A stretch of 35,009 nt of DNA from Marinilabiliaceae bacterium (GTDB lineage: Bacteria; Bacteroidota; Bacteroidia; Bacteroidales; Marinilabiliaceae), in the NCBI GenBank assembly GCA_029933425.1, contig JAOZOF010000001.1, forward strand, positions 1-35,009. The letters run 5' to 3'. The notes below the pieces were generated by a model. It made no database searches, was not told the DNA's origin, and was given only the letters and a program-made list of their open reading frames with translations. Made by a program: the position numbers and the translations under genes. Numbering within the stretch: the stretch's first letter is position 1; each line of letters begins with the position of its first letter. Below are positions 6,899-28,822 of this stretch, piece by piece.

Positions 6899-8803
6899 TC
6901 AATCCTTTATGCATCGGACAGAATGCCCATACGACTTATAATTTCTTTTTAAAAAAAAGTTATCATTATTGTAATTCAATGAACAGAAGTAAGCATTGTT
7001 ACTATCATAATTAGTTGCACTCCACACAAAGTAAAATTCGCCCAATAATGAGAAAACACCATCATACTTACGGCTACCATCCGGCAGAGCTGTATAGCCT
7101 GAACTGTTATCAGCACCTTCATTAGGACTTATCCAGTGTATTGTGCCCATTTCTTTCATTTTACCACTGGCTCCGTCTGAACCTCCAAGATAATTTACCA
7201 GACTTGACCAATCATCATTAGTAGGAAGATGCCAACCATCAGGACAAATACCTTGCCCATCCTTATTATCTCGAACCCAGTTATCTCCAATTGCAGCAGC
7301 ATAAGTATATAAAGCACCATAATCAATGTTATTATAGTTATTATAAAAGCAATATGCATCTTCATAATCGTTATCCCCCAATGAATTCCAGTCATCATTG
7401 TAAATAACATTAGGAACAGGATCGCCATTGGGATAATGCGTAACCTCAAGGTCTTTTGCCATCCAAATTTGATTTCCGATTCGAATAGTAGGATATTTAT
7501 TCCCATCAATATCTTCTACAATACCATTTAACCCCACATTTAAAAGGTCTTCATATATTAACTCTTTTATTTCATCCACATATTCTTTCGTAGCCGCATC
7601 CTTTGCGCTAACCGGAGCTGCCAGGTTCGTTATTTTATTGTCATTTGCATTTATATCGCCTTGAGGCATCAAGTTAATATCACCAACATCAGTACTTATT
7701 CTTCCATTAGTTCCGTCATGAGTGAGTTCAATATATGTCCCCCAGCTGCCGGCCGTTTTTCCATATACCCTCAGTTTGGCATCATAAGTTCTTTTGTTTG
7801 CCCAGATGGAATAGAAGCCGAACAGTTCGTCAGACAGGTCATCACCTGAAATAAAATGTGAGGTATTGTTCGTAAACTGTATTCCCGGTCTTGCAGGATC
7901 ATTTGTAATTGATGAGCTTATAATAAGAGCAGGTATTGATCTTGTATTAATATGCAAAGGCGCCTGAGGTTTCGAAGTGCCTATTCCCACATTTCCATTT
8001 GATAAAATATCCATAATGTGGATATCGCTGCTGTTTCTGAAACCATAAGCAACAGTATCTCCTGTTGCATGTATATTACGAAATAACAGCCCATCTCCTG
8101 CTTGTATAATATTTGTATGACCATAGGTGCTGTTAGAAACAACAAAAGGATTTGACCATCCTGATGTTGCTACATCAAGCCTGCCGAGCGGAGATGTTGT
8201 ACCTACCCCGACATCCCCTTTTGTATAAACAGCATCATCCGAATTGTCCCCGTCTGTAAATTTCACATTAGACGCTTTATCGGCATATTTTGCATAAGGA
8301 ACGCTTAACAGCTGACTTGTACCGGTGATAGTGTAGTTAGTACCTCCGGTTGGGTCGGTTTCAACTTTTATAAAGTATGGCCCGTCTGACCAGTCGATAG
8401 ATGAGAAGTCTCCGCCACTTACAAAAGTTACCTCTACTGCCTCCGAGCTTTTTAATGTTTCGACACTTGTAGGACTGTCATCCGAGCCGGAACCGATCGC
8501 CAGTGAAACCAGCCCGTTGTCATTGGTAGTTACTGTGTACTCCTCCACATAAACATCCGAACCGTCAGGAGCACCCTGAACAATACTTATTAGCATTCCT
8601 ACCTGAGAATTCCGTACAAGATCACCTCCGGCATCCCTTATCACTGCCTGATAGCTCATCAGATCGGGAGCCTGGGCAAATAATGAAGTTAAAAACAGAA
8701 AATTAATAAATGTAACAGCTATTGCAGCTTTGAGTCCTGGTAATTCATTTTTCATATTCAAGGATTTGTTGGTTAATATTATTTTCGAATAGTTACAGAT
8801 CAT
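6899..8803 (-). CDS. Secreted protein with tail-fibre-like shaft and C-terminal FISUMP domain
   Basis: QAPDLMSYQAVIRDAGGDLVRNSQVGM N-terminus; VGVGTTSPLGRLDVA; AKDAATKEYVDEI; C-terminal IDGNKYPTIRIGNQIWMAKDLEVTHYPNG...GICPDGWHLPTNDDW...SVRCIKD. Confidence 0.85.
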   Translation of the reverse strand: MICNYSKIILTNKSLNMKNELPGLKAAIAVTFINFLFLTSLFAQAPDLMSYQAVIRDAGGDLVRNSQVGMLISIVQGAPDGSDVYVEEYTVTTNDNGLVSLAIGSGSDDSPTSVETLKSSEAVEVTFVSGGDFSSIDWSDGPYFIKVETDPTGGTNYTITGTSQLLSVPYAKYADKASNVKFTDGDNSDDAVYTKGDVGVGTTSPLGRLDVATSGWSNPFVVSNSTYGHTNIIQAGDGLLFRNIHATGDTVAYGFRNSSDIHIMDILSNGNVGIGTSKPQAPLHINTRSIPALIISSSITNDPARPGIQFTNNTSHFISGDDLSDELFGFYSIWANKRTYDAKLRVYGKTAGSWGTYIELTHDGTNGRISTDVGDINLMPQGDINANDNKITNLAAPVSAKDAATKEYVDEIKELIYEDLLNVGLNGIVEDIDGNKYPTIRIGNQIWMAKDLEVTHYPNGDPVPNVIYNDDWNSLGDNDYEDAYCFYNNYNNIDYGALYTYAAAIGDNWVRDNKDGQGICPDGWHLPTNDDWSSLVNYLGGSDGASGKMKEMGTIHWISPNEGADNSSGYTALPDGSRKYDGVFSLLGEFYFVWSATNYDSNNAYFCSLNYNNDNFFLKRNYKSYGHSVRCIKD

Positions 8804-11089: not shown

Positions 11090-14000
11090 TTACTTAACCA
11101 ACAATTTTCTGTTGATCACTTTCTCATCAGTTTCTATCTGCACAACGTAAATCCCTTTACGCAGGCTTCCGATCCTGATGGTCTGTGTCTCATCACCGTT
11201 CCACTCTCTGCTGATCAGTACAGCACCCGACATATCCACAAGTTTTATCGACTTCACTTTGTTGTTGCCGAAATAAGCCGTGAAGAATGTTGTACACGGA
11301 TTCGGGTATATCACAAGGTTATCCTCTGCTATCTCAAGTTCCGTATTTGTGGAGATTGAGTAGAAAATGTTAACCTTGGCCGTTGCTGTTGCTTTTCCAT
11401 CGCTTACCAGCAAAACAAAGGTCAGAACAGTATCCTTGTTGATGACCGGTGCCGTGAATACCGGGCTCATGCTATACTCATCATCAAGTGTAATTCCGTC
11501 AGGCGGAAACCAGTGATAGGTCAGGTCATCGCCGTCGGGATCAGTTGAACCTGAAGCATCAAGTGAATACTGCTTACCTGATTCCACGTAGAAGCTGCTG
11601 CCAGCCTTGGCAACCGGAGCAGAATTATCCTTGTCGATGGTCCATGTTACCGAAACAGTGTGTGTACCCGAAAGTCCGCTGCTGTACTTGTGCAGGCCTG
11701 TGAGGTCGAGCGACAATGTGTAATCACCCGATTCGCTTGTCATGCCATCCAGTCCGGTAACTTTGTAAACAAGATCGGATACCTTCTGAATTGTTACACT
11801 GCCCGGGAGAACCTCTTCGTTGCCGTTGTGAACAAGTTTCAGCAGAGAAACATCAGGAGTTCCCTCCATCAGTTTTTCGGAAACTGTGAACTCAATGTCT
11901 GAAGGATGATCAGGATATGTACCTGAAAGATCCTGCCATACGGCATCAAAGGCTGTCTGATCGACAAATGCATCGATCTGAGCAGTACTGTAATTACCTT
12001 CTGAGTTCACAATATGAACTTCGATAACAAAGTTACCCGGAGACGTAATGGTTACGGGAACAGACACTTCACCAGACTGAACTTTGTCTAATGCTCCAAG
12101 CAGGGTAAGTGTTCCGAAATCGTTCCTGTAAACTTCTACCTTGACATTGTCATCCGCAACATCCATCACCACATCGAATGATGTAACCGAGGTAATGTTA
12201 TCAGTATTGGAATAGCCAAGGTCAGGAGTGATCCTCAGACCAGCAGCTTCAACAGGTACTGACCTGTCGACAACCCAGTTGAACTCCTCAACTCCCGAAC
12301 CTCTGTGACCTGCCTTGTCAACCACATTCTCCATATTCACTTTCAGGGAGTAACTGCCCTCATAGTAAGTAAGAAGCCTGAATTGTGTCAGGTACCATAT
12401 GTTATTGCCGATAGAGTCAAAGTGTACCTGTGACATAGGCTGCTGCATTCCGTCTTTCCACAGATCGATAGAACTGATGTCAACGCCTGATACAGGCTCA
12501 CTGAATTCTATGGCAATGCCGGAGTAGTGATGGCCATCGTAACCGCCCTTGCTGTCAGGGGTGAATGAAACAACCGATGGCGGCGTAGTATCCATTGTCC
12601 AGGTCACAGTCTGCTCTGTCAGGCCTTTCTCTCCGTCGAGGTTGGCAATACCCGGCATGTCAACAACCAGAGTATATTCACCGTCCTCAGCCATCGAAGC
12701 ACCTATTCCGGATACTTTGAACAACTGCGACTCTACATCCATTTTAGTAACTGTCAACGAACTGCTGACAACCGTTCCATTGTGTTTAAGAGTGAATCTT
12801 TCAGGAACAACGGTATATTCATCAACAGGCATGTTGAAATGGACCATAACATAATCGAACGATGATGTTATCAATGTGTCGTCTGCCACACCAATGAAAT
12901 CATCAACGGCAGGAACTGTCAGGAACTGTGTCCATCCCACATGTTCGCCATACTTACCTTTGTTGCCGCCCATATCGGATATCTCGGCTGTTTCAACAGT
13001 AAGTACGTAGTAGCCGTTTCCAGTGGTAAGGGCAGACAGATCGAGATCATATGTAAAGTCATCGATCTTAGTTATTACTACAGCTGAACTCATGATATCA
13101 TCACCGCCCTGCAGTCTCAGTGTCATATCTTCCCAGGTGAATGTAGCAGGATCGATCTTACAGTTGAATTTAACCGTAATGTTGCTCACCTGTTGTGTTA
13201 CAAAATTCTTGGGTGCTCCGTCGATGGAAACTACATAAACAGGATTGTCATCCTTCAGCTTCCATACAACGGTATACTCATGATCACCAACTTCCTGCAG
13301 ATCGTCAACAAAATGGAACTTGTTCTCGTAAATCGGCTCTTTGCCGTCGGGCAGAGTAACGAATGTAAGCCACGCATTGTCGGGAGGAATGACCTGCCCG
13401 TCACTGTTGCGTGTAATGCTTGCTATCTCGTATCTGCCGTTGCCCGGATCGTCCAGCACTACATAGTTCCAGCCCCTTAACTTGTTAACCACTTTAAGAG
13501 TGTTAGTGTAATCGGGGTACCTGATGTTACCGTCAAACGCAGCGGCCTCGGCACCAAACACATCGTAAACAACGCTGCCCTGAGACAGGTAGATGGCATC
13601 AGGCTGCTCTTTGATGTCCTGAACCTCATTTACAAGGAAGTCATTGATACCGTCATCGTTGGCTCCGTACACTTTAATACTCCTTATCAACTCGTGCAGC
13701 TTGGCTCCGCTGACTAAGCTCAGGTCAGGATTTCCCCGGCTGTCGAGATGTGTTACCTCAGTCTTGTAATCCACAAAGTGACCAAGCAGATCGCTTGTGA
13801 ACCACCACTGACCTATGGCAGTTGACTTAGGTGCAATGTTGCCGAAATCGATATTCGTCAATCCAAGCTGACGCGGCTGTCCGTTAAGGTTAGAACCTAT
13901 AAGTGCAAAGTGAATGGCAAGTCCTTTTTTGTTATCAACTATCTCGGGCTGTGCCGATTCTATCCTGACTTTTCTGGCTTCGCCATAACCGTTGTTCTCT

Positions 14001-17000
14001 ATCATCACTGCAAGTTCAGCAGGAACAACAGGTTCTACAACATTTTCCGTCAGTGCATCATCACCGAGAATGTCGCGCTGCATGAAGTAATGCAGGAACA
14101 GATCAGGCGACGGATCAACTTCAAGAGTTACCGGCATCAGTTGCTTTGTAACAACCAGATTGGTGAACGGATCGAGATAAGAGAATGAACCACCGAAAGA
14201 ATAACTTTCAGGAACCGTCGGGGCAGCTCCTTTCTCAGGTATGAACAGAATGGTAGCACTACCTTTCTTTCCTGCATCAAGAACACCGGTACTGTCTATT
14301 CCGGTAAGAATATCCAAAGCTTTTGTCTCGATCTGGAACAGGTCATTACTGATAGCTCCTTCCGAATTCCTCACCTCAAGGTTAAGCTTGATATTCCGCA
14401 TTGGTATTGAATCATGGCCGTTGTAAATGGTCAGAGTTCCTTCGAATGCTTCACGTGTCATCACAAGCTTTTGTGAGATCTTAATGGTAACAGACGCACA
14501 GACTGATGAACCTCCGCCTTCTGACGCCTCTTTCATCGTTTCCATTGCTTTCATCTGCATATCACCAACCGATTCATATCCTCGATTCAGGGCATACAAG
14601 GTGATAGCATCCATTCCTGCCCTTTTCGCATCAATTATTGTTTTATCAATAATATCAGGATATTCAGATGTCGGTGAGTATATACCTTTACCCCACGCTT
14701 CCATTGTTCTGTTCCATCTGTTCACAACATAATCTATCTCTTCATTCGAGATATCTGTTCCATACATATGTAACTTAATGGAATCTGTTTTTGCCGGGCT
14801 GAAAGTCGATCTGTCTCTGAATATCTGGATGGTTTCATCGAAGAAGTCAAAGAAACTCTCTTTAGTTCCCCATTCAAAAGTGCCAAAATATTCGGCCATT
14901 TCTTCACGTGCCAGGGTGTCGTTTTTAGCCACATATTTCAGATCTTTAATAGCCTGCACCATAATTGGAGACAGCTTACTGTAGTAACTTGTGTCTTCCT
15001 GTGTCACCATTGCACTCTTAAACGGAAACTCTCTCGCAACTCCGCCAGAGCCCGGAGGTCCTCCACCGCCACCGGCTCCACCTCCACCTGCGCCTCCTGA
15101 ACCTAAACAAACCTCAATAGTACCGATAACACCTAATACACATCCCAGATAAGGTACACATCCTGCAACATCGGAAGCACTAATACCATCCATAGCACCG
15201 GAAGCACAACCTGCAACGCTAAGAGCTGCTCCTACAGGACCTGACAGCAAATCTCCAAGACATCCGATTATAGAAAGTAATCCTTTGATCTTACAAGGAT
15301 CACAGTCTTCTGTAGAAGCTGTGACAGATGGTTCGGTTGAGTAAACTTCGTAATCACCACCAGTATCTCCTATCGCTGGCCCGATACCGCCGCCACCGCA
15401 GCAGCCTCCCCAGCCGTCACCTCCACCGCCGTCTCCCGGACAATATCTTCCTGAAAAAGAAAAGATAACTCCTGCCCTGTGCCATTTATGATCTGCACCA
15501 CACTCAAATCCATAAATTGTAACTGCATAATCAGAACAATTTCCGTCTGAAGTAATGCTTGATGCAGATTTCAATTTATCATTGCTACCATTCTTTTCCG
15601 GTTGAGCCGAAGAGGCATCTTTGCGCCGCATTGTCACAGGAACCTGAACTGCCTGTTGTGCAAGAATATCTATTTTCGGGAAGTTAAAGATCCATTCATA
15701 TTCAGGATCGTTATCTGGAAATTTCAACTCAGTATCCTCAGCTGTGATCAGCCCTTTGTTAGTAAGAGTAACCATGAAAGTATACGTTTCATCTCCCTGA
15801 AGCTGAGGCATTACTTTGGGCATCTCCATTACAACCACAGGCGCGGGAACATTGGTCTCGAACTTCATTATCAGATCTATCTGATACTCATCCTCAATAT
15901 CGGTTTCGATCACATCCCAGGTATATGTGATTGCCTGGAAGTCGAGGAAAACCGACTTATTCAATGTCCTTCCCGGATCGATCACGATCGGATTTCTGTA
16001 GCCTTCATGTTTATCGGCTTCAACGGTTAAGATGTAATTACCTTCAGGAATGCTGTCGACAGTGAACACTCCTGTTGAATCGGTGAAACCGTCTCCTATT
16101 ATCTTACCCGAATACGGATGACGCAATACCACATGCGCACCCGAAACATGCGGAGCACTGTCGGTGTTGTATGTGTAAACATCCACAACATCCACCTTCA
16201 GGTTTCCTTTGTCCTCAGAAACAGCTTCGATGATATAAGGAACTGAAAGGTCGTCTCCGTTGGATACATGCAGAGCCATGTTACCTTTGAACGGCAGGTT
16301 CAGAGGTGCATCCTCGCCGGGAAGCAGCATCAGTGTGATCACTGTGGTGTCACCCGGCAGAATGTTATCAATGGTATCGGGAGAAACAAGCGACATGAAA
16401 TCAACATCAGGCAACTCTACGGCTACTTTACCTGTTTCGCCTATACCGTTGTTGTTTATCCTCAACTCAAGGTATCTCGTCTTACCTTTTGTCATGGTAG
16501 TGTTGATACTTGAGGGATAGCTCTCAAGATGTCCCTGAAGAGCCTGACAGAAGTAGTATCCGTCAAATTCAAACGACACATCTTCATCCGATGTCGCTTT
16601 AAGCGGGAACTGAATGTAGTTCACACCCGGTGTTACCTTTGTCCCTGTAACCACATAGTGCAGTTCGGCAGTAGCCCCGCCTGCAAGAGTTGCAATGGTA
16701 TCTATCTTGAGCTCACAACCTTCAGGAAATTCATCAGACCCGAGAGTAACATTTGTAAGCGGAATATTGCTCCTGTTACGAATTGCAATGACTCCCGTAT
16801 CGGGAATACTGCGTTTGATGTTCCAGACAAAATAGTCTTTCGAAACGCGTTCCATTCCCATTATGTCAAAAGCATCCTGCTCATCGGTAAGTCCCTGGCC
16901 GGGATAACATGCCCCGATAATGTAATGTCCCGTTTCGTAATCGAACGGTTCAAATGTTGTGCTGTAATCACCTGTAGCATCGGTTGTAACATTTATAACC

Positions 17001-20000
17001 CTGCGCAGGTTTTCTGAGATAACATACACATCAACGTCGGCATTTGCAGCAGGCGAACCGTCATACATTACAGCCTTTCCACTGATATCCACCGGCCCTG
17101 CTTTTTTAAGTATTTCGGTATCCGTTGAGGCAGTTGCCGAGTAAGACGGAAGGATCGTAAGGTCTCCCGAAGAAGCATTGTTGTTTTCATAAACAAGTTC
17201 TGACACCTTAAACTCAGGATTTACCTTTGCAAGAACCTTGTAAGTTCCTGTGTAATCAGGTATGGGAAGTATCTCAATGAACGGGACCGTTGAACCCGAA
17301 GGTATCGGATCAGGCAATGCAGCTTCAAAGATCAGCGAATCACTTTCTTCGAGCACATCATTCTCCGACAGGTAGAATTTAACTGCAATGCCGGACGGAG
17401 CCGTTCCGAAACCATTGTTCATCACATTGGACTGTACCCGCAGGAACCCTCCTGCAATTACAGAATCTTCACTCAGCTCAATGTCGGTAAGCTCAAGGTC
17501 TGCTTTGTTAATATCGGTAACATAGGCATACACAATCCCGGGAGAAAAACCCGGTGCTTCAGCCTTGATGGCTACCATCTGGTTCCCATCCTCAACTCCG
17601 TCGTCCTTGGTCTTAACGGGTACACGCAATGTTGTTTCTCCCGCAGGAATAGTTACCGTTGCAGGGAGCCACATTTCGCTGGTATCGTTCACCGAAAGTG
17701 AAACCTCAAGATCGGAACCGGCAGCAGTATTCCTGAATACCGACAATGTTCCTGCTTTGTCAAGCCCCTCTTTGAACGAGGCCTGATCAACAGTAAGGGT
17801 GAAAGCAGGACCGTCGTTGTCGATTATGGTCATCGTTTTGCTTACAACGCCTCCGCTTGCGGCAGGGGCACTGCAACCGCATGAGGAAATGTAAACCGCT
17901 GCTGATACTTTGATGTCTCTGAAGCCGTCAACAAGGGCATTGTCGATAACCCCGATATTGATCTTCTTCGACATCTCATTTGGAGAAAGAGTGATAGACG
18001 TCGGAAAATATACCGCATTCGGCACATCAACCGAAATGTTGATCCTGAGTGTTCCCTCTCCGGAACCAGTTCTGCGGATTATGCCCCAGGTTGCGTAAGG
18101 CCCGGCTCCTTCAGAAACTGTATCGTTGGCTATCTCCAGCTCTATCACCGGTATATCATCATCAGTGATCACCGTAAAAGCCTCAGCAGTTACCAGTCCT
18201 TTGGAACTTGCCATTAGCTTAACGCGCTGATCGATCTCGGGTGAAATGTCATCCGTAACAACGATCTTTGCGGTAACCGAATTCTCATTGCCGGGTATCG
18301 TGACTGACACCGGGAACGACCATTGTGATGATCTGTCGGTGGCAAGGTAAACCACGGTTGGATCAGGTATTGTGAGATCCCGTGATATGTCAACTGTTAC
18401 CGTATCCCCTTCATGCAATGTATCAGGAAGTAAGGTTACAGAAAGTGATGGTACCTCATCGTCAAGTATAGTGATCTCTTTCGACAAGGGATCAAAACCG
18501 GCTGCCGAAGCGGTCAGTGTGACCGTCCTTGACCCGTCAAGTTCTGAATTATCGATAACACCAAGATCAAATATGCCTGATGCGCTGCGGGCAGGTATGG
18601 TTACCGATGACGGCAGGTCAAGCTGTCCTGCCTGAGAAGCTGTCAGCGTAAGACTCAGATCATTCACTGTGTTACCGCTGCGAGATACGTAGCAGCGGAC
18701 TGTTCCTGAATAATCCTCTTTGATATCGGTTACGGGAACGGTAAGGTAGATCTTCTCATTGAAAAGGATCCGGTTAGGAGTACTCGCTTTGTTGTTGTCT
18801 GTACTGCCCGGCTCCTCGATAAGTTGTGATGACGGGTAAAGGTTTACTTCGATGTATGCCTCTCCTGAAAAGTTAAGTATTTCTGGAACAACAAACGAAA
18901 AACTCCTTTGCCTTGTGCTGTCCTGTTTCAGGACACCGGAGAACCCGGGAGAACCTGTCAGGTTAACCCTGAGGCCTGAAAGCGAGATGAGTGATACCTT
19001 CTCAGTCCATCCTCCCACAGCATCAGCACCGCCTGTATTCTTCACATCCCAGCTCACAACGATAGTATCGCCCGGATCATAAGTTGTATGATCGGTCATT
19101 ACATTCTGCACAAGCATATCGGGCATTGGCTTAGCAGTAACAACAAGCTTTTGTTGCTGTGTGCTCACGTTGTTATCGTTATCGGTCTCTGGAATGTTGT
19201 TGTAGTTATCAACCTTTACCAGGAGGTAGTAATCTCCGGCATTACCGGCAGGCACACTCACTGTTATTTTCTGAGTGTACGAACTGTCACTCTTCAAGGT
19301 GTAATTACATACGATCCTCCCGATCATCATATCATCGGATGATAGCTTGTCATCGGCAGAGATATAAACCGTGTTATACCACGACCTGCCCGAACGGGTT
19401 GAGCCCGCTCCCTGATTCTTAATGGTAAATTCAACATCAAACGGATCAGTTGTCAACACACTGTCATTTGCCGTTACTGAAGTTATGACAAGGTCGGGCA
19501 GGTTACGAACGGTAAACATCTGCACATCCGTTGAGTCGTATCCGCACTGATTGAACGATTTCACATACCACCGGTAAGTACTTCCGTACTCCAGGGCGTT
19601 CACATAGGTTGATGTACCGTAGATGTTTTTTCGGTAAGCTGTAGCCGGCACAGCATCCCCGTCTTTCCAGATGTACACACTGTAACTGATGGCATTTTCT
19701 GCAGGCTGCCAGTAAAGGCTGAACGCATTATCCAGATCTGCTGCATTATCGGCAGGAACAAGTGTTCCCGCTTTTCCCACAGGACCGCAATAGGCATTGA
19801 GGATGTCTGGATTGCTGTAATCCGGAACATGATCGGCCACAAAAGTCTGCGTTTCGGTGATGTCATAGATCTTGTTGTTATTCACGTCGTAATACCTGAA
19901 GGTAATGACCTCGCCCGAGGCAGAGTTACTGAACAGACGGATCTTGAACACCATGGTATTAGTAGGCGTAAACTTTACGGAAGCAGTCTGTGCCCCTCTG

Positions 20001-20266
20001 ATCTTACCGTCAACATAGGCTATGAGAGCACCGTCTTCAAGCCAGCTGCCGTTCAGATTGACACGGTAGATGTATTCGGCATCATACTCGTAGCTGTTTG
20101 ACAGCTGAGTGTTCGAGGGGATCGAAGGAAGCCGGACCTGCGCGTTTACCGGAGAAAAGCCGGACAACGTACTTGCTAAAATAAATGCCGCAAGCATTAA
20201 CAGTACTTTGAATGGAACAGTGCTGTTTGCTTCCCTGTATATGTTATGTTTATCAATTTTTTTCAT
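11090..20266 (-). CDS. Giant (3058 aa) T9SS-exported multidomain surface protein (CARDB, Calx-beta, Ig/fn3-like and PKD-like domains, Cys/Gly-rich central insert)
   Basis: CARDB-like LPDLVITSVTANDSVLTTDPFDVEFTIKNQG...; several Calx-beta-like EGDTVTVDISRD... modules; PKD-like APVAKAGSSFYVESGKQYSLDASGSTDPDGDDLTYHW; T9SS end IYPNPCTTFFTAYF...KGIYVVQIETDEKVINRKLLVK. Confidence 0.88.
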   Translation of the reverse strand: MKKIDKHNIYREANSTVPFKVLLMLAAFILASTLSGFSPVNAQVRLPSIPSNTQLSNSYEYDAEYIYRVNLNGSWLEDGALIAYVDGKIRGAQTASVKFTPTNTMVFKIRLFSNSASGEVITFRYYDVNNNKIYDITETQTFVADHVPDYSNPDILNAYCGPVGKAGTLVPADNAADLDNAFSLYWQPAENAISYSVYIWKDGDAVPATAYRKNIYGTSTYVNALEYGSTYRWYVKSFNQCGYDSTDVQMFTVRNLPDLVITSVTANDSVLTTDPFDVEFTIKNQGAGSTRSGRSWYNTVYISADDKLSSDDMMIGRIVCNYTLKSDSSYTQKITVSVPAGNAGDYYLLVKVDNYNNIPETDNDNNVSTQQQKLVVTAKPMPDMLVQNVMTDHTTYDPGDTIVVSWDVKNTGGADAVGGWTEKVSLISLSGLRVNLTGSPGFSGVLKQDSTRQRSFSFVVPEILNFSGEAYIEVNLYPSSQLIEEPGSTDNNKASTPNRILFNEKIYLTVPVTDIKEDYSGTVRCYVSRSGNTVNDLSLTLTASQAGQLDLPSSVTIPARSASGIFDLGVIDNSELDGSRTVTLTASAAGFDPLSKEITILDDEVPSLSVTLLPDTLHEGDTVTVDISRDLTIPDPTVVYLATDRSSQWSFPVSVTIPGNENSVTAKIVVTDDISPEIDQRVKLMASSKGLVTAEAFTVITDDDIPVIELEIANDTVSEGAGPYATWGIIRRTGSGEGTLRINISVDVPNAVYFPTSITLSPNEMSKKINIGVIDNALVDGFRDIKVSAAVYISSCGCSAPAASGGVVSKTMTIIDNDGPAFTLTVDQASFKEGLDKAGTLSVFRNTAAGSDLEVSLSVNDTSEMWLPATVTIPAGETTLRVPVKTKDDGVEDGNQMVAIKAEAPGFSPGIVYAYVTDINKADLELTDIELSEDSVIAGGFLRVQSNVMNNGFGTAPSGIAVKFYLSENDVLEESDSLIFEAALPDPIPSGSTVPFIEILPIPDYTGTYKVLAKVNPEFKVSELVYENNNASSGDLTILPSYSATASTDTEILKKAGPVDISGKAVMYDGSPAANADVDVYVISENLRRVINVTTDATGDYSTTFEPFDYETGHYIIGACYPGQGLTDEQDAFDIMGMERVSKDYFVWNIKRSIPDTGVIAIRNRSNIPLTNVTLGSDEFPEGCELKIDTIATLAGGATAELHYVVTGTKVTPGVNYIQFPLKATSDEDVSFEFDGYYFCQALQGHLESYPSSINTTMTKGKTRYLELRINNNGIGETGKVAVELPDVDFMSLVSPDTIDNILPGDTTVITLMLLPGEDAPLNLPFKGNMALHVSNGDDLSVPYIIEAVSEDKGNLKVDVVDVYTYNTDSAPHVSGAHVVLRHPYSGKIIGDGFTDSTGVFTVDSIPEGNYILTVEADKHEGYRNPIVIDPGRTLNKSVFLDFQAITYTWDVIETDIEDEYQIDLIMKFETNVPAPVVVMEMPKVMPQLQGDETYTFMVTLTNKGLITAEDTELKFPDNDPEYEWIFNFPKIDILAQQAVQVPVTMRRKDASSAQPEKNGSNDKLKSASSITSDGNCSDYAVTIYGFECGADHKWHRAGVIFSFSGRYCPGDGGGGDGWGGCCGGGGIGPAIGDTGGDYEVYSTEPSVTASTEDCDPCKIKGLLSIIGCLGDLLSGPVGAALSVAGCASGAMDGISASDVAGCVPYLGCVLGVIGTIEVCLGSGGAGGGGAGGGGGPPGSGGVAREFPFKSAMVTQEDTSYYSKLSPIMVQAIKDLKYVAKNDTLAREEMAEYFGTFEWGTKESFFDFFDETIQIFRDRSTFSPAKTDSIKLHMYGTDISNEEIDYVVNRWNRTMEAWGKGIYSPTSEYPDIIDKTIIDAKRAGMDAITLYALNRGYESVGDMQMKAMETMKEASEGGGSSVCASVTIKISQKLVMTREAFEGTLTIYNGHDSIPMRNIKLNLEVRNSEGAISNDLFQIETKALDILTGIDSTGVLDAGKKGSATILFIPEKGAAPTVPESYSFGGSFSYLDPFTNLVVTKQLMPVTLEVDPSPDLFLHYFMQRDILGDDALTENVVEPVVPAELAVMIENNGYGEARKVRIESAQPEIVDNKKGLAIHFALIGSNLNGQPRQLGLTNIDFGNIAPKSTAIGQWWFTSDLLGHFVDYKTEVTHLDSRGNPDLSLVSGAKLHELIRSIKVYGANDDGINDFLVNEVQDIKEQPDAIYLSQGSVVYDVFGAEAAAFDGNIRYPDYTNTLKVVNKLRGWNYVVLDDPGNGRYEIASITRNSDGQVIPPDNAWLTFVTLPDGKEPIYENKFHFVDDLQEVGDHEYTVVWKLKDDNPVYVVSIDGAPKNFVTQQVSNITVKFNCKIDPATFTWEDMTLRLQGGDDIMSSAVVITKIDDFTYDLDLSALTTGNGYYVLTVETAEISDMGGNKGKYGEHVGWTQFLTVPAVDDFIGVADDTLITSSFDYVMVHFNMPVDEYTVVPERFTLKHNGTVVSSSLTVTKMDVESQLFKVSGIGASMAEDGEYTLVVDMPGIANLDGEKGLTEQTVTWTMDTTPPSVVSFTPDSKGGYDGHHYSGIAIEFSEPVSGVDISSIDLWKDGMQQPMSQVHFDSIGNNIWYLTQFRLLTYYEGSYSLKVNMENVVDKAGHRGSGVEEFNWVVDRSVPVEAAGLRITPDLGYSNTDNITSVTSFDVVMDVADDNVKVEVYRNDFGTLTLLGALDKVQSGEVSVPVTITSPGNFVIEVHIVNSEGNYSTAQIDAFVDQTAFDAVWQDLSGTYPDHPSDIEFTVSEKLMEGTPDVSLLKLVHNGNEEVLPGSVTIQKVSDLVYKVTGLDGMTSESGDYTLSLDLTGLHKYSSGLSGTHTVSVTWTIDKDNSAPVAKAGSSFYVESGKQYSLDASGSTDPDGDDLTYHWFPPDGITLDDEYSMSPVFTAPVINKDTVLTFVLLVSDGKATATAKVNIFYSISTNTELEIAEDNLVIYPNPCTTFFTAYFGNNKVKSIKLVDMSGAVLISREWNGDETQTIRIGSLRKGIYVVQIETDEKVINRKLLVK

Positions 20267-20274: not shown

Positions 20275-23200
20275 TTATTTAGATGTCTTAACTATCTTCC
20301 GGTTCACAACAACATTTCCGACCTTTATGCGGACCGTGTAAATTCCCTCTGCGAGCCCCTGAACAGGTATGCTGACTTTCTCACTGTTGGGTATAAGTTC
20401 AACAACCTTGGCCCCCATGGAATTGAAAACCGAAACTCTTTCAACCGGCCCGGAAGCCGAGATCCTCAAAACATCAAAAACAGGATTTGGCCAGATCATC
20501 ACATCCGTCATTCCCGGCGTTTCATCAATTGATGTTGCCTCGTCGACGAACAGCGGCCTCGGTGTTACGGCCTGACCGATGATCTCATCAGGACTGAAGC
20601 TTACCGTGAAACCGGTCACATACTCATTGTCCCCGGTATCCTGTTTGAGTTTAAAAATGATGTCTTCACCGGCGGCATTGGAGTAGTATGTAAGTACAAA
20701 AATATACTTGCCGGAAGCATCAACATATCTTGCCTCCGATACTCCGCAAACTTCATTGCCATGCATGGCGATGAGCAGATCTCCTGCCCGGACAATATTG
20801 TCGCCGTTATCCGACATCACTTCTGCTATCAGGGTTGAAGAGTAACTGTATCCTGCGGGGTTTAGCCCGTACAGATCAAGAAGCTCCTCCCTTCCGTACC
20901 TGGCCACCGATATGCTTTTCTTAGCACCTGCGGCACTGTAAAGCAGATCTCCGGCATCTTCAACATTTATCTTGTATCCTTCAAGAATTCTCAGGGTATC
21001 TATCTCACCACTCCATCCTGTACCCGGGAAATAAACCGATGAACCGTTCAGCCCTTTCAGCACCACATTTCCTGCTGGTATCGACGAGGTAACTATGGCG
21101 TCGTTGAGGGCGGCATCACTCCTTAACAGATAGGCAATGCTGTTCCATCCCGGAACCATTGATACGGATGTTATTGTCGGATTTATCTCCTCTCCCGTGA
21201 CACTCAGCTGACCTGAAGCTCCCTTCTTCATCCTTACCGTGCGGTTTTCAGGGAATGAAACCAGATCACCAAACCAACCTGTAGAGGCATAGTAAGTAGC
21301 CGAATACTCCGTTGATTTCACATAGTCAAGCTCCTGAAATGTCATTCCTCCGAATATCGAAGTTATGTCCATATCGGCAGGCCTGACATTGAGCGAGATC
21401 CAGTTCCAGCCTGCACTGATACCCCGCTGCATAGTGCTGACGGGTGAGTTGACAACAACCTTCCATGTACGAACTGTGGTGCCGTCCTCGGCTGTTACGG
21501 TGTAGTAAACAGGCATTGAAAGATCCTGAACACTTCCCGAAGCAGGATTTACAGAAGCCTGATACGACAGCTTAAACTCAGGTGCTAAAGCCCTTACATC
21601 GTATCCGTACGGCATGTTAAGACTAACAACACTGTTCGCATCGTCGATAGTGAATGATTCCATACCGGGAAGCATTACACTGTCTATCTTTGCCTCTGTA
21701 CTCAGAATGTCAATATTCTTAACTGTTACAAGAACCTCATCGGGATCCGAGTCTTTGTTACCGTCGTTCACAACAAGAATGAATGAGAGTATCGAATCGC
21801 GGTGAACGGCAGGAGCCGTAAAGGTTGGTTTTGCAACAGTGTTCGAAGAAAGGGTAACCTCAGGCGGGGCTGTCCACAGATATGTGATCGGATCGTTATC
21901 GTCATCATACGACAGCGAGCCGTCGAGCGAGGCAGGATCGCCTTCGCTGACCTCAAAATCACCTCCGGCAAAAGCAACAGGTTTTTTATTCTCCTGAAGT
22001 GCCGTGATAACAACCGTATCGGCAGCAGAATAGACTGCACCGTCGTTTACCACAAGTGTAAACCTGTATTCAGTGTTCTGATCGACCTGAGGAAGAATGA
22101 ACGATGGTGAAACGCCTGTACTGTTGAACAGTACAATTCCGTCAAGTGACTTCCAGTTGTACGACAGCTGGTCGCCGTCGGGGTCGAATGAGTTGCTGCC
22201 GTCAAGTGAAACAGAACTGCCTTCGAGGTAACTCTTATCCTCCCCTGCATCGGCAACAGGCGGCTGATTAAGCTGCAGAACCGTTACCGTAACCTGATCG
22301 GGGTCTGAGTCATCAGAACCGTCATTGACCACGAGGGTGAATGTTAAAGGAGTATCCTCGCTCACCCACGGAGCAACAAAAACCGGAGTTTCCGAAGTTG
22401 GATCATCAAGAGTTACTCCGGAAGGTGCCGTCCACTGATAAGTCAACTGATCGTTATCGTAGTCATACGAAGCAGAAGCATTAAGCTGTACCGTATCACC
22501 TTCCTGAACTGAAAAGTCGGCACCCGCATTTGCGACCGGGCGATAGCTGACCTGCTCTACCCTTGTTATAAAACCGCTTGTAAGAGATGTGTAGATCGTA
22601 TTTTCATTTGCAGAGAAAGATGTCAGGTTAACAGCTGCTGTTGCGTTCAACGGAAGAGTGTTCCTGATCCTGAAAACAACATAACCGATAACACCTGACT
22701 TGATACCGTCACCCGAAGCACCCGACACGGAAATGGTATTACCCGACAAAGTTCCTTCGAGCAGTATCGACGACAAAGCATCGACCCTGACATATTCCAG
22801 ATCAGCATCATCAAAAGTAAGTTCGGCCTTAAAACCGAAGATATCCCTTCCATCGGGAAGTTGTGATACCGTGATCGGTACCCTTGTGTCTACATCGAGT
22901 ACCCCGTCGGTATTATTGACCTTCACATTGCAGTCGTAAACGGTGAATTCACCGCTTGTTCCCTCAGCACCGTGCGCATCCTCTGCCGAGACTCTGATTT
23001 TCCCTCCCGAAACAGCTTTCAGGTTACCCTGTACATCAATAGTTGCTACAGAAGGGTCGGATGTTGAGTATGTGTATGGAGCAGTACCTCCCGTTGCAGT
23101 TATCTGTATCTGATCGCCCCACATCAATGCTCCTGATGATGGAGAGAAATTCAAGGAAGGAAGGTAATCCACATTTATGTAGTATGTGGATTTTACCGGC

Positions 23201-24270
23201 CAGGCAAGCAGCGACTCGTTGAATGTCACCTCCCCGAATCTCATCCAATGGTATCCGCTTGCATTTGCCCTGAAGCCAAGATAACACAAAACACCACTGC
23301 CGGTTACAGGCACTGATGACGCGAATGAGACAGAAAGCACCCCCGAAGTCTCACGACTTTGGATAACAGCCTGATAATCGCCGGGCACAATTACATTTGT
23401 CAGGCCGGAAACAGCTGTATTGTGCTGCAGCTCAATTTTTCCGGAATAGATCTCAGTTCCGGGTGCAACCTCGATCTTAACAGGAATATAAAATGTATCT
23501 TTCGGCCAGACCGATTGCTCCTCGATGTCCATCCTGACACTTCTTACATCGAAAACACCTGATGTGTACGATTTTTCGCCGTTTGCATCGGTAACATAAA
23601 CCTTTGTAGTACCGGCATTTATCGCCTGTACCTTGGTTTGTTCCGTGATAACTGCAACATCGGTGTTAACTACCGAATAAGTATATGGTGCAACACCGCC
23701 TGAAACGGACATCTGCACAATATCACCGATGAACATGTTGTAGCTGTCGGGATAGATATTCGGATACGACCTTGCAGCCATATAAACATATCCGTTATCG
23801 TAAGTCGATGAAGGATTTCGTTCATTCAGGTAACTCTCAGTTGTATTAAAAGAGATGTAAGTTCCACCTGTTCGCAGAGATACAAATTTCAACAATATCA
23901 TATGACCTGCTCCTTCGAGAGGCGAACTGCCTGCTCCTGCCAACCGTATTGTTCCCGGATTAGAACTGTTAACTGTAGGCAATCCCCAGGCATCAAGCAC
24001 CGGACCTGTTTCGTCAACACCGATAAATTCAACGTACGAAGGATTGTACGTCAGGTAAAACCTGTAGGAATAGACTTCACGTCCTGTAAGAACGGAATCG
24101 GCGGTAATGGTTACCGTAAAGGTATCCTTTTCCGTTACCGAAACATCAGGGATACTGAAGCCGATCGGTGTTGTTTGTGCAGCAACTTTACCCCCTCCCG
24201 ATAAAAGTATCGCGAGCAGGATAAAGGCAACCGCTTTATATCTATGAATATTTATCGTTAGCATGACCAA
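20275..24270 (-). CDS. Large T9SS-exported protein with three cohesin-like domains, Big2-like domains and three PKD domains
   Basis: Cohesin-like segments VTEKDTFTVTITADSVLTGREVYSYRFYLTYNPSYVEFIGV..., MDIEEQSVWPKDTFYIPVKIEVAPGTEIYSGKIELQHN..., VDTRVPITVSQLPDGRDIFGFKAELTFDDADLEYVRV...; PKD modules PVANAGADFSVQEGDTVQLNAS, PVADAGEDKSYLEGSSVSLDGS, PVAFAGGDFEVSEGDPASLDGS; T9SS end IWPNPVFDVLRIS...VVNRKIVKTSK. Confidence 0.85.
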   Translation of the reverse strand: MVMLTINIHRYKAVAFILLAILLSGGGKVAAQTTPIGFSIPDVSVTEKDTFTVTITADSVLTGREVYSYRFYLTYNPSYVEFIGVDETGPVLDAWGLPTVNSSNPGTIRLAGAGSSPLEGAGHMILLKFVSLRTGGTYISFNTTESYLNERNPSSTYDNGYVYMAARSYPNIYPDSYNMFIGDIVQMSVSGGVAPYTYSVVNTDVAVITEQTKVQAINAGTTKVYVTDANGEKSYTSGVFDVRSVRMDIEEQSVWPKDTFYIPVKIEVAPGTEIYSGKIELQHNTAVSGLTNVIVPGDYQAVIQSRETSGVLSVSFASSVPVTGSGVLCYLGFRANASGYHWMRFGEVTFNESLLAWPVKSTYYINVDYLPSLNFSPSSGALMWGDQIQITATGGTAPYTYSTSDPSVATIDVQGNLKAVSGGKIRVSAEDAHGAEGTSGEFTVYDCNVKVNNTDGVLDVDTRVPITVSQLPDGRDIFGFKAELTFDDADLEYVRVDALSSILLEGTLSGNTISVSGASGDGIKSGVIGYVVFRIRNTLPLNATAAVNLTSFSANENTIYTSLTSGFITRVEQVSYRPVANAGADFSVQEGDTVQLNASASYDYDNDQLTYQWTAPSGVTLDDPTSETPVFVAPWVSEDTPLTFTLVVNDGSDDSDPDQVTVTVLQLNQPPVADAGEDKSYLEGSSVSLDGSNSFDPDGDQLSYNWKSLDGIVLFNSTGVSPSFILPQVDQNTEYRFTLVVNDGAVYSAADTVVITALQENKKPVAFAGGDFEVSEGDPASLDGSLSYDDDNDPITYLWTAPPEVTLSSNTVAKPTFTAPAVHRDSILSFILVVNDGNKDSDPDEVLVTVKNIDILSTEAKIDSVMLPGMESFTIDDANSVVSLNMPYGYDVRALAPEFKLSYQASVNPASGSVQDLSMPVYYTVTAEDGTTVRTWKVVVNSPVSTMQRGISAGWNWISLNVRPADMDITSIFGGMTFQELDYVKSTEYSATYYASTGWFGDLVSFPENRTVRMKKGASGQLSVTGEEINPTITSVSMVPGWNSIAYLLRSDAALNDAIVTSSIPAGNVVLKGLNGSSVYFPGTGWSGEIDTLRILEGYKINVEDAGDLLYSAAGAKKSISVARYGREELLDLYGLNPAGYSYSSTLIAEVMSDNGDNIVRAGDLLIAMHGNEVCGVSEARYVDASGKYIFVLTYYSNAAGEDIIFKLKQDTGDNEYVTGFTVSFSPDEIIGQAVTPRPLFVDEATSIDETPGMTDVMIWPNPVFDVLRISASGPVERVSVFNSMGAKVVELIPNSEKVSIPVQGLAEGIYTVRIKVGNVVVNRKIVKTSK

Positions 24271-24274
24271 TGAA

Positions 24275-27200
24275 TTATTTTACAACAACTTTTCGTGTAA
24301 CAGCAAAGTCATCTCCTCTTACAGTAATAATGTACATGCCTGATGATCGGCCTGTTCCTGAGGCTTCCGGCATAAATGTGAATCTTTGATGTCCTGCCGG
24401 AACATTACTGTAAATTATTTCATTGGTTTTCCGGCCTGTAATATCGTATACCGAAATTATAAGTTTTGACTGTGCAGCTTCTGATTCTATCTCGGCATAA
24501 CATTTTCCGCCTGAAGTGTACACCTTGATTCCGTCACTGTCCGACAGGTTACCGACATCGGTAGCTACCTGGTTACTTCCAACAAACACAGTGAAGTCAT
24601 CATCGGTATCAGGTGTTTCGTTGGCAACAAGATTGACCAGTTCAACTTTTGATTCCGGTATTGAAGCATCAATGATATCGAATGTCAACAAAATGCTGTT
24701 TCCATTCAGTTCAAGGTCATAAGCTGACGCAACGGATATTTTCACTAAACCTGTTGTCTCGTCATATCCCGTTACAGTCATTATATCTGATGGGATATCT
24801 CCGGTATTAAGCTCTATGAATTTCAGGTGCTGAGGATCTGTTGCAATGCCAATATCCATTGATTTGACACTCTCTCCGGTGGTGAGATCAACCTCGATCT
24901 CAAACCGTGCTGTCTCCGGCTCCAACCTGTCGTAAGGTACAGATACTGAAACTTCCGGTACAACATCCGCAGATTTAAGCTGTGCCGTTCCACCGGCAGG
25001 TTCAAATCCCGTGATCAGTCCTATGGTGTATTGCAGTATCAGTGAAGCGTCAAAGCTTGTAACAGAACCGTTGAAGCTCACATCGGCAACCTCCTGCTGA
25101 ACAGATGTAAGAGTTATGTTACCCACACTGCTTTGCAGTACCAGCGACGCATCGTACGGCATAACCTCACCGTTCAAACTCACATCACCCATTACAGGCT
25201 GCGAGGGCTGTGTTATCCAGGGATCAAAGTCCACATTATTGGAAACCCTGACCCCCTCCCCCGAAGGATTCGAGGTAGCATTGTACGGTCCGGTGTCATC
25301 ATCCCACCAGCAATTCTCTGCCACAACTGTTACAGTACCCGTCTCATTCCAGACACCATACCCTGTTGACGGGTCTATTCCTATAAAGTCACAACTGTTG
25401 ATCACCGGAAGGCTTGTATTCCTTGCAAGAATACCCCACCTGTCTTCCTCAAACCTTGTATTAGTAATTGTAGGAGAAGAGTTGTCAAGGGTCACAGCTC
25501 CTTTGTTATAGCTATGTACATTGCTTGAGTAGTAGTAGGTGGCATTTTTAACAACACAATTGTCAAGCAGGCACTCATCGTCTATCGACTCTCCGGAGAA
25601 GAAGATCCCTCTCCACCACCGGTCGTTTGCAACATTAGCATCACCATCGCCATAAGTGTCGCCCCCATAAAAATCATCACGGTCGGATGTGAACACAATA
25701 GTACTGTCAACACTACTGCCTCCGTTTGCGATCAGCCCCTTGCGTACAGTAAGGTAGCCTCCCTGTTTAAATTTACAAATAACACCGGGTTCAATTGTAA
25801 GCACTGCACTTGTACCAATTGTATAGTGATAAAATACATAAGGAATATTTGTTATTCCTGCAAAATCATGTTTGGCAAGTGTTGCATCTTCTGTAAGTGT
25901 TACATTGTCGTATATCTGGATAGCTTTTGCAGTTGAACCCGATAAAGTATTCCCCGACATTGATGAAGGAAATGCGGGAGGAGCAATTGTTAAAGGAAAC
26001 GGTACATTATCAAATGTACAATCGGTTATTACCGGAGCACTGCTTCCGCTTATGACTATTCCATCATATCTGTTGTGCTGGAATGTACAGTGGGATACAG
26101 TGGGTGATGCATCAATTGCACGAAGCCCGTGGTAATAGGAATAGCGAAAAATGGTATTGTTAACAACACTGTTGTCATCTGACGTTCCCCTGAATACGAT
26201 CCTGGGCCCGTTAACTGATACCGATGTTGCTCCGTTAGCCTGTGTATCATTCGGATTACCATATGCGTCATCAGTAAGCGAAGTGAACACTACCGGCTCA
26301 GTTTCCGTTCCGTTTACAGTTAATTTTCCGTAAACATCGATGTAACGATCGGCCGAAGCCTTAAAAGTAACTCCGGCAGGAATTGTGAGTTCTGCATCAA
26401 CCCTTAAATTACCGTCAAGGATATATGTTATCTTGTCATAGCCGGCAAAGTTTCGTACCGGCACGGTGCCGCTTATTGTGCCCGGGCGGATAGTTATTGC
26501 CGCATAGCCGACATTTGCCATGCTGTTGCCGGAAAATGAAGGATCAGCAAACATATCCATGTAAAGCGGCGAATATTGAATATTGTTGAACTGACTGTTG
26601 GTTATTGAAGGCGCCGCATTCCCGTACATTGAAATACCGTAATTATCGGAGAAATTAATGATCGTAGAATCCACAGCGGCATTGCAATTATCAAACAAAA
26701 CAGCTTCATGCATGTACCTTACCTCTACATTTTTCAATGAATTAAAAGTATCATTCGAGGAATTTGCAAAAGTCAGCTTTGTAAATTTATTACTCACCGG
26801 ATCTACACCGCTGCTGAAATTTGTATTGCCGGCAACCGAATTATCATAAATAGAAGTAAATATGATCTTTTTAGTAGCAGTACCTTCAGCCTTTAGACCG
26901 CCTTTAACTGTAAGTCTTGAGCTCCAGTATCCATTAAATTTGAATACTGTGCCGGGCAGGATCGTTACATTTGCACCTTCGGGAATATCCCTGTTCTCAT
27001 CCTGAATAATGTATGCCACGTTAGTATTTCCGGCAAAATCCAATCCTCCTATGGAATAATCGCCTGGAGCAAAACCATGAACAAGGATCCCGTTATATCC
27101 TACATTTGAAATGGTATTACCGATCAGGACCGGAGAACCGTCATTGAAGTATCTTGCAACAGGATACCAATCTATGTTTTCAAAAGTGTTATTCAACACC

Positions 27201-28822
27201 TCTGCATCGCCCCAAAACAGCAACCCTCTGTGACTGTACATTATTGTACAATTCTCAACAATACTGTTACTGCCCACTTTTATAGCATAATAACCGGAAC
27301 TTGTAGATCGTCCTGCATAAAGGATCTTCCAGTATTTCAGATGAGAAGCTCCCGGATCGTTAAGATAAATACTTCCTGTACTGGTATGCGATATAGAACT
27401 TGTTGTTCCGTCGTTATATGTATCAGCAGGATTGCCGTAATTATCATCATTGATATGGGTAAATACGATGGGATCGGTTTCTGTTCCTATTCCTTCAAGT
27501 TTACCATACGAATATATATAGTTACTTGTGGCCGTACTCTTTATCACAATACCAGGATCAACTGTAAGAGAAGCAGTATCTGCAATTGTGACCACTCCAT
27601 TAAGAGCATATGTAATGTTATCGTAACCGTTGAATGAAACCTGTTTGAGGTGTGAATCCGTATAAACAGTTGAAGCAAAAAGACCGATCGCCCTTCCCTC
27701 CTGTTCGTTAAATGCTATATCACAATTATTGAATGACGGCTCAGATGTTGCATCGATATTAATATTTTTCAGCGTGTGAGAAACCCGTGTTGATTGACCG
27801 AAGTAACAATTATTGAACACGGGCAGACTTCGGCCTGATATTTTCAGATTGTAATGATTATTTCTGAATACGCAATTCGAAAATACAGGAGAACTTTTTT
27901 CGATGTAAAGAGTATTGTCCCCGTCATCATAATAGATCCTTGAAACGTTGGAAAAGAGTGTGTAATTAAAGATACAAGCTGTGTCAACGGCAGAATCGTA
28001 TATCCTTAATCCTCTCCAGTAATCGTTACCCGGAGCATTCGAGAATTTAACACTGTCAGCAGCTGTTCCGTTCGATTTTATTTTACCATAAACGTTGATA
28101 TATGCATTCGTATTTCCCAAAAGCTCTACTCCGGCATCTATCAGTAAAGCCCCTGCCGAGTTGACTCTAAGCTCAGAATCGTAGTAGTAAGGAATGCCTG
28201 GATCAGGAAGCGGGAAGACAGAATTAACATCCCTGAAATTAATGAAAACATAATCATTGGTATTGCCTGTAAGATCAACCCCTGCACCAACACTCCAACT
28301 GCCATCGCCTCTGAAATAAACGGGATACGGGCAATTTTGGATCGTTGTTTGCTCAATATCAACTGTTCCCGCAGTATAAATATCAAGCCCTCTGCTGCTG
28401 AAATGATGTAACAAACAGTTATTTGTCATTGTCAGATCACCCATCCTGACATACAGTGCTTGTGCATATTCTACTGTTGTTCCGTTCAAAACTACTGTTC
28501 CGTTTAAAGAACCATATTCATATCCCACATAAATACCTTGCCAGAAACCGGGTGTTGTACTGCCATTAGCTGTTAATGTTGCTCCTGTGGCATTCAATGT
28601 TCCGTATACAACAATGTATGTTCCGGAGTTGAACTGAACTACGGTTCCCGTTTCAATGGTAAGTGTAACTCCATCGTTGACAGTAATATTTCCTGTTACT
28701 GTGTATGGACTGCCTGATGCTGTCCATGTAGCATTGTTAGCTATCGTCCCGCTAACATTAGTTTGTGCTATCGATGTAAGAGAAAAGACAGCAGTAATCA
28801 ATAAAAGTAAAAGATTTTTCAT
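24275..28822 (-). CDS. Large T9SS-exported right-handed parallel beta-helix protein with dockerin-like and cohesin-like C-terminal modules
   Basis: Repeated beta-helix text (SSPVFSNCVFRNNHYNLKISGRSLPVFNNCYFGQS; SAPVITDCTFDNVPF); GDVSLNGEVMPYDASLVLQSSVG...ADVSFNGSVTSFDASLILQYTIGLI; cohesin-like SVPYDRLEPETARFEIEVDLTTGESVKSMDIGIATDPQHLKFIEL...; T9SS end ending AVTRKVVVK. Confidence 0.88.
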   Translation of the reverse strand: MKNLLLLLITAVFSLTSIAQTNVSGTIANNATWTASGSPYTVTGNITVNDGVTLTIETGTVVQFNSGTYIVVYGTLNATGATLTANGSTTPGFWQGIYVGYEYGSLNGTVVLNGTTVEYAQALYVRMGDLTMTNNCLLHHFSSRGLDIYTAGTVDIEQTTIQNCPYPVYFRGDGSWSVGAGVDLTGNTNDYVFINFRDVNSVFPLPDPGIPYYYDSELRVNSAGALLIDAGVELLGNTNAYINVYGKIKSNGTAADSVKFSNAPGNDYWRGLRIYDSAVDTACIFNYTLFSNVSRIYYDDGDNTLYIEKSSPVFSNCVFRNNHYNLKISGRSLPVFNNCYFGQSTRVSHTLKNINIDATSEPSFNNCDIAFNEQEGRAIGLFASTVYTDSHLKQVSFNGYDNITYALNGVVTIADTASLTVDPGIVIKSTATSNYIYSYGKLEGIGTETDPIVFTHINDDNYGNPADTYNDGTTSSISHTSTGSIYLNDPGASHLKYWKILYAGRSTSSGYYAIKVGSNSIVENCTIMYSHRGLLFWGDAEVLNNTFENIDWYPVARYFNDGSPVLIGNTISNVGYNGILVHGFAPGDYSIGGLDFAGNTNVAYIIQDENRDIPEGANVTILPGTVFKFNGYWSSRLTVKGGLKAEGTATKKIIFTSIYDNSVAGNTNFSSGVDPVSNKFTKLTFANSSNDTFNSLKNVEVRYMHEAVLFDNCNAAVDSTIINFSDNYGISMYGNAAPSITNSQFNNIQYSPLYMDMFADPSFSGNSMANVGYAAITIRPGTISGTVPVRNFAGYDKITYILDGNLRVDAELTIPAGVTFKASADRYIDVYGKLTVNGTETEPVVFTSLTDDAYGNPNDTQANGATSVSVNGPRIVFRGTSDDNSVVNNTIFRYSYYHGLRAIDASPTVSHCTFQHNRYDGIVISGSSAPVITDCTFDNVPFPLTIAPPAFPSSMSGNTLSGSTAKAIQIYDNVTLTEDATLAKHDFAGITNIPYVFYHYTIGTSAVLTIEPGVICKFKQGGYLTVRKGLIANGGSSVDSTIVFTSDRDDFYGGDTYGDGDANVANDRWWRGIFFSGESIDDECLLDNCVVKNATYYYSSNVHSYNKGAVTLDNSSPTITNTRFEEDRWGILARNTSLPVINSCDFIGIDPSTGYGVWNETGTVTVVAENCWWDDDTGPYNATSNPSGEGVRVSNNVDFDPWITQPSQPVMGDVSLNGEVMPYDASLVLQSSVGNITLTSVQQEVADVSFNGSVTSFDASLILQYTIGLITGFEPAGGTAQLKSADVVPEVSVSVPYDRLEPETARFEIEVDLTTGESVKSMDIGIATDPQHLKFIELNTGDIPSDIMTVTGYDETTGLVKISVASAYDLELNGNSILLTFDIIDASIPESKVELVNLVANETPDTDDDFTVFVGSNQVATDVGNLSDSDGIKVYTSGGKCYAEIESEAAQSKLIISVYDITGRKTNEIIYSNVPAGHQRFTFMPEASGTGRSSGMYIITVRGDDFAVTRKVVVK
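24575..24960 (-). other. Cohesin-like domain encoded within the 24275-28822 gene
   Basis: EVSVSVPYDRLEPETARFEIEVDLTTGESVKSMDIGIATDPQHLKFIELNTGDIPSDIMTVTGYDETTGLVKISVASAYDLELNGNSILLTFDIIDASIPESKVELVNLVANETPDTDDDFTVFVGS resembles cohesin fold (Y/D..L.F..., G.L..L.F). Confidence 0.65.
25010..25195 (-). other. Dockerin-like duplicated F-hand module encoded within the 24275-28822 gene
   Basis: Two matched units DVSLNGEVMPYDASLVLQ and DVSFNGSVTSFDASLILQ fit the DxNxDGxxxxxD...L dockerin type I pattern, with degenerate calcium ligands. Confidence 0.75.

Follow-up and report, generated by a model that had tools for sequence, protein, structure and literature searches.

Two neighboring genes, A and B, in a 35,009-nucleotide stretch of DNA from a Marinilabiliaceae bacterium (assembly GCA_029933425.1, contig JAOZOF010000001.1; the whole stretch is called the window) encode a dockerin-bearing β-helix protein and a protein with three cohesins, and the pairing of A with B is near-obligate. 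In the best explanation, A and B, joined in close relatives by the product of gene C, probably form a non-cellulosomal, Ca2+-dependent dockerin-cohesin surface assembly of type IX secretion system (T9SS) proteins; we infer the binding, the partner, the Ca2+ dependence, the surface location and the role. Dockerin and cohesin modules are best known from cellulose-degrading complexes. Ca2+-loaded dockerin binds a face of the cohesin with nanomolar or better affinity, and this contact, among the strongest known between proteins, is nearly always discussed with cellulosomes.

Domain architecture of A, B and C

Genes A, B and C are consecutive on the minus strand (Table 1) with stop-to-start gaps of 10 nt (A-B) and 8 nt (B-C), and the N-termini of all three products read as signal peptides, that of A as a Sec signal peptide. 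A preliminary description of this DNA had proposed two adjacent, tightly packed genes with dockerin and cohesin modules; both open reading frames are present where it placed them, and the modules were confirmed by Pfam and by profiles searched against the PDB. The start codon of B is likelier the ATG at 24264, 10 nt past the stop codon of A.

Table 1. Features of the A-B-C locus (positions in the window)
Feature	Position	Strand	Description	Evidence
Gene A	24275..28822	-	1515 aa, secreted β-helix protein with dockerin, cohesin and T9SS tail	ORF, Pfam, homologues
Right-handed parallel β-helix region of A	25238..28735	-	Seven stretches	PF13229 5.5e-27
Type I dockerin of A	25028..25189	-	Residues 1212-1265; two F-hand Ca2+ loops, DVSLNGEVMPYD and DVSFNGSVTSFD	PF00404
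Cohesin-fold domain of A	24584..24949	-	Class A-Coh	PF00963 matches of orthologues, PDB profile, AF2 and Foldseek
T9SS C-terminal sorting domain of A	24281..24484	-	Degenerate	PF18962 E=0.1; TIGR04183 8.1e-5
Gene B	20275..24264	-	Cohesin protein, 1329 aa	ORF, junction sequence, synteny
Cohesin B1	23848..24159	-		PF00963
Cohesin B2	23236..23529	-		PF00963 stretch; best PDB profile match 2xdh 1.2e-9
Big_2 domain between B2 and B3	22951..23154	-	Two stretches	PF02368 1.1e-7
Cohesin B3	22633..22908	-		HMM made in this analysis; best PDB profile match 2xdh 1.9e-9
Three PKD domains of B	21721..22527	-	Three stretches	PF22352 2.8e-31
T9SS type A sorting domain of B	20290..20496	-		PF18962 2.3e-9; TIGR04183 2.6e-10
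Gene C	11090..20266	-	3058-aa T9SS protein with CARDB, CarboxypepD_reg, Big_5 and PKD	Pfam

Full-length homologues of A (1488-1555 aa) share 39-63% identity, and the β-helix region has a weak match to NosD in Pfam. The dockerin of A (Dockerin_1) scored 25.8 bits, above the curated cut-off of 22.9; by Pfam alone this is weak, which is one weak point of the best explanation. With an HMM built without the window's family it scored 52.9 bits, and the family profile matched solved dockerins in the PDB (e.g., 4uyq_B, 1.5e-9, and 1ohz_B, 4.4e-7). Among 52 homologues, D1, S3, N5 and D12 of Ca2+ loop 1 are invariant, and in loop 2 the counts are 51/52 (D1), 48/52 (S3), 45/52 (N or D5) and 51/52 (D12). 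On the F-hand helices, as in the loops, the motif is near invariant, and the two F-hands are about 61% identical to each other, which would suggest a dual-binding mode. The near-invariant Ca2+ ligands and the similarity of the F-hands in these homologues argue that cohesin binding has probably been retained.

The cohesin-like domain that the preliminary description placed after the dockerin of the 1515-aa protein is borne out by its family. The window's own copy was missed by PF00963 when searched alone, and 13 of 25 orthologues match (best 5e-18). The A-Coh profile retrieved mostly solved cohesins from the PDB, the best being 2xdh (2.4e-8), which we take to be the structure of an A. fulgidus cohesin. 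A-Coh was modeled by AF2 with pLDDT about 90 and the A tail with pLDDT 78.7 and pTM 0.62; the best Foldseek match of the tail model was a C. perfringens cohesin construct, and the nine-stranded jelly-roll β-sandwich of cohesins was recovered by AF2 and Foldseek (2vo8, TM-score 0.67 of target, rmsd 3.5). A further HMM, covering the post-dockerin region (cohesin and T9SS), gave 36 bits for the A tail.

Three cohesin-like domains had likewise been proposed for B, with a length of 1331 aa; PF00963 matches the protein in three stretches (63.9 bits, cut-off 24.1), and the length is likelier 1329 aa. HMMs built without the window's family scored B1, B2 and B3 at 43, 22 and 17 bits; E-values of later HMMs are partly circular, as these were built with the window included, and the PDB and Pfam profile searches are not. 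All PDB matches of the B1 profile are cohesins or a cohesin-bearing O-GlcNAcase. The profiles of A-Coh, B1, B2 and B3 match almost only cohesins, with 2xdh, 3ul4 or 6kgc among the top and 2xdh the best match for three of the four classes (A-Coh, B2 and B3). A generic Ig-like or invasin reading of these segments was rejected on this near-exclusive match. A Big_2-like domain similar to that in Table 1 also lies between B1 and B2. The AF2 model of the B1-B3 segment (pLDDT 93.4, pTM 0.61) has cohesins, including the cohesin dyad 3l8q, among its top Foldseek matches, and NUP210 at the very top. NUP210 aligns with this model (window 22591-24159, Coh-Big-Coh-Big-Coh) as a tandem of β-sandwiches, so Foldseek alone does not prove cohesins in B. 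Weak Pfam matches of B to TMEM132 and NUP210 Ig were also seen.

That both proteins end in a T9SS domain, as first claimed, is clear for B. The tail of A is degenerate and marginal (TIGR04183 22.5 bits versus a cut-off of 23), a further weak point of the best explanation, with stronger scores in A orthologues.

The original two-gene set stands insofar as A and B belong together; it overlooked gene C, 8 nt downstream of B, which probably also takes part in the assembly. The T9SS tail of C is clear. In close relatives C lies directly downstream of B, sharing 40-60% identity along the roughly 2000 aa available before the loci end, and in four loci (L076, L143, L145 and L146) it is fused to the first two cohesins of B, a Rosetta-stone pattern that suggests B and C act in one complex. 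No C homologues were seen in the second clade of the A tree (Balneolota, Ignavibacteriota and others).

Linkage of A and B

In 295 genomes of the window's order, a dockerin was detected in 104 and a cohesin in 83 at E<=0.001. The first 20 loci were picked mostly for having both domains on one contig, so the A-B pattern is only suggested by them. When the best dockerin match per genome was taken (38 genomes), a cohesin gene was directly downstream in 29, a single-ORF fusion was found in 4 and other arrangements in 5; about half of these loci overlap the 20-locus set, from which the dockerin profile was built. When named genomes were searched with the A tail only, blind to B, 50 loci emerged: B was directly downstream in 47, fused into a single gene in 1, and 2 loci were cut at a contig end. 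The reverse search, with the B cohesin region only and blind to A, found B in 14/295 genomes of the order, and A was directly upstream at 15/15 assessable loci, the window included; contig C165 of genome G282 begins inside B and its upstream side is absent. Single-ORF Coh-Doc-Coh proteins are encoded at L081, L082, L103 and L172.

Conserved flanking genes were looked for around the pair across relatives and none were found; the nearby MBL-fold, TPR and Fib_succ_major genes are not conserved with it. The A-B linkage is thus specific. Synteny in both directions and the Coh-Doc-Coh fusions are independent evidence that A and B belong together, and such co-location could also stem from joint function without dockerin-cohesin contact, another weak point of the best explanation.

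Spread of the pair and cohesin slots

The A-B pair also occurs in Balneolota, Ignavibacteriota, Calditrichota and Neomarinimicrobiota. A phylum survey detected this dockerin type in 49/396 genomes at E<=1e-10 (up to about 12%); 20 of the survey loci were inspected, of which the nine strongest (L174-L182) all have the pair and the weaker ones are mixed, with Coh-Doc-Coh fusions and some loci lacking B. The architecture, described at first as unusual, is recurrent in Bacteroidota and neighboring phyla, and noncellulosomal adjacent pairs are known in A. fulgidus. That the pair stays adjacent across so many bacterial groups suggests a widespread, undescribed cell-surface assembly.

The A tree separates a Bacteroidales/Marinilabiliales clade, which includes the window, from a second clade of Balneolota, Ignavibacteriota, Calditrichota, Neomarinimicrobiota and some Bacteroidota. 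Balneolota and Ignavibacteriota each form one group, so vertical descent and some transfer are both possible. The four cohesins fall into four complete clades by position (support 0.97, 0.82, 0.53 and 0.87), from which it follows that the slots B1, B2, B3 and A-Coh had become distinct before any split of these lineages or exchange of the locus between them. B1 is the best conserved, with a mean identity of 40% versus 36, 31 and 26% for the others, the lowest value being that of A-Coh.

Several variants were noted beside the pair. Many other A-type dockerins of the order (L070-L079, WGGVNSTDALL type) are missing the first part of Ca2+ loop 1 and have a CFGDVNASY motif some tens of residues past the second F-hand, giving them the look of permuted or split dockerins. 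Large dockerin expansions are present in G094, G196, G116, G215, G052 and G095 (at least 20 A-type dockerin matches each, 39-116 first-look candidates), in contrast to the single pair in the window's genome. At L095 and L190 the pair has longer counterparts with more components, in which T9SS genes carrying cohesins, dockerins or both follow one another, and the single-ORF cohesin-dockerin-cohesin protein of L172 belongs to Acidobacteriota, beyond the usual phyla.

Proposed assembly and alternatives

A, B and C would each be exported by the Sec pathway and then moved by the T9SS to the outer surface. There, the Ca2+-loaded dockerin on the C-terminal side of A would plug into a cohesin of B, most likely B1, which we favor as the partner since it is always N-terminal and conserved more than any other cohesin. 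This contact would tie the β-helix protein to the PKD/Ig-rich stalk of B, and the array might be extended through further copies of A or through A's own cohesin. Rather than an enzyme complex, the outcome would be a layer or fibre on the cell surface with a structural or adhesive function. A structural or adhesive assembly is the simplest reading that we infer from domain content.

One of the four candidate cohesins, A-Coh, lies in cis to the dockerin, which is a weak point of the best explanation. The dockerin might instead bind this adjoining cohesin, either folding back or building a head-to-tail fibre of A, with B as an anchor that uses its cohesins differently. Such an arrangement would fit the adjacency of dockerin and A-Coh in essentially all A proteins, divergent families included, and the separate, conserved A-Coh clade; it is nevertheless unlikely, as the near-obligate linkage to a cohesin gene is better explained by A-B binding and A-Coh is the class with the lowest mean identity (26%).

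The absence of a glycoside hydrolase from the operon, as first reported, was upheld: Pfam found no GH/PL catalytic domain or CAZyme catalytic family in A, B or C, and the scanned relatives had no match to CAZyme families either. The genome-wide check for further dockerin proteins that had been proposed found no other dockerin or cohesin over cut-off in the window's genome. Since this genome is an 86%-complete MAG, a dockerin-bearing enzyme could be missing from the assembly; two near-complete relatives of the same family (G143 and G238, 99%) have one significant dockerin match and one significant cohesin match each, both at this locus. SprA, part of the T9SS translocon, is encoded in the window's genome (SprA_N 9.5e-71). 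A cellulosome, which requires several dockerin-bearing enzymes, was rejected on the single dockerin gene in the window's genome, G143 and G238, and B has no CBM of the kind expected of a CBM scaffoldin, its Sde0182_C match overlapping better-scoring PKD domains. The earlier label of B, scaffoldin-like, is a loose one, as there is no sign that B recruits enzymes. Lyases commonly contain β-helices, and A might be an unrecognised polysaccharide lyase or hydrolase docked on B in a small cellulosome-like complex. Clostridial cellulosomes include dockerin-bearing β-helix proteins (Cthe_2159 type), and in rumen Bacteroidetes GHs with dockerins have been found (PMC7480376). The lack of any CAZyme family match in A, B, C or the scanned relatives and the one dockerin per genome in near-complete same-family relatives make this improbable, and the lack of dockerin enzymes makes an enzyme scaffold unlikely.

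Generic Ig-like spacers are frequent in surface proteins and Foldseek also returns many Ig-like proteins, but that the F-hand and cohesin-like segments are mere Ca2+-stabilised or Ig-like spacers with no docking function is very unlikely given the PDB specificity of all four cohesin profiles, the near-invariant dockerin motif on helices and loops, and the way dockerin and cohesin genes travel together in both search directions.

On a broader reading, which we hold only tentatively, Bacteroidota, Balneolota, Ignavibacteriota, Calditrichota and Neomarinimicrobiota could share an undescribed surface machine. One dockerin and four slot-specific cohesins would hold the giant T9SS proteins A and B (and C) together in a fibre or coat that depends on Ca2+ and whose role is structural or adhesive, not enzymatic.

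Comparison with known systems

The A. fulgidus pair AF2375/AF2376 is, by analogy of gene order and modules, the closest apparent precedent for A-B. These are consecutively numbered neighbor genes with a dockerin near residues 432-506 of 2375 and a cohesin at residues 29-162 of 2376, for which strong, specific dockerin-cohesin binding was measured (PMC9705933). Matching modules in neighbor genes and the lack of a cellulosome are shared, and the A. fulgidus cohesin lies close to the N-terminus; here, by contrast, three cohesins are present in B, a β-helix in A and T9SS tails in both, a third giant protein follows, the host is bacterial and binding is predicted.

A PF00404 dockerin and a multi-cohesin surface protein are also found in the clostridial cellulosome (CipA-type scaffoldin, type I dockerin enzymes), from which the present set differs: it lacks a CBM and dockerin-bearing enzymes, its genome encodes one dockerin, T9SS takes the place of SLH or sortase anchoring, and its cohesins fall into four distinct classes. 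Candidatus Stygibacter (Cloacimonadota) likewise attaches dockerin and cohesin proteins via a conserved T9SS-kind C-terminal domain, but there a 3755-aa CBM scaffoldin carries peptidases and glycoside hydrolases that bear dockerins, none of which are seen here (PMC8542988). The dockerin/cohesin proteins of ANME archaea are similarly noncellulosomal and multi-cohesin, with cell-surface attachment proposed; their domain content is variable, whereas here the gene pair and the cohesin slots are fixed (PMC9012536). In TMEM132 a cohesin domain is joined to BIG-like domains (PMC6030884), but TMEM132 and NUP210 are eukaryotic and without dockerins, and resemble B only in their tandem β-sandwich folds.

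A rumen study stated that cohesin/dockerin parts are absent from Bacteroidetes genomes (PMC5831590), and no report of the T9SS A-B(-C) set was found in a literature search that was thin on subscription journals. The new element is the near-obligate A-B pairing. A fixed dockerin/cohesin pair, or at least its dockerin type, is present in up to about 12% of sampled phylum genomes, and also in neighboring phyla, with no sign of enzymes. What dockerins and cohesins do outside cellulosomes can be tested directly in cultured hosts, among them Plebeiobacterium marinum and Balneola sp. EhC07, and the two modules may offer a new orthogonal binding pair that suits T9SS display.

A repeated gene cassette occupies 2143-8803 of the window. 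In it, two Fib_succ_major proteins and one further protein are interleaved with two small proteins that have T9SS tails; the further protein (4468-6378) has no Pfam match and is similar to the same relative as the Fib_succ_major proteins.
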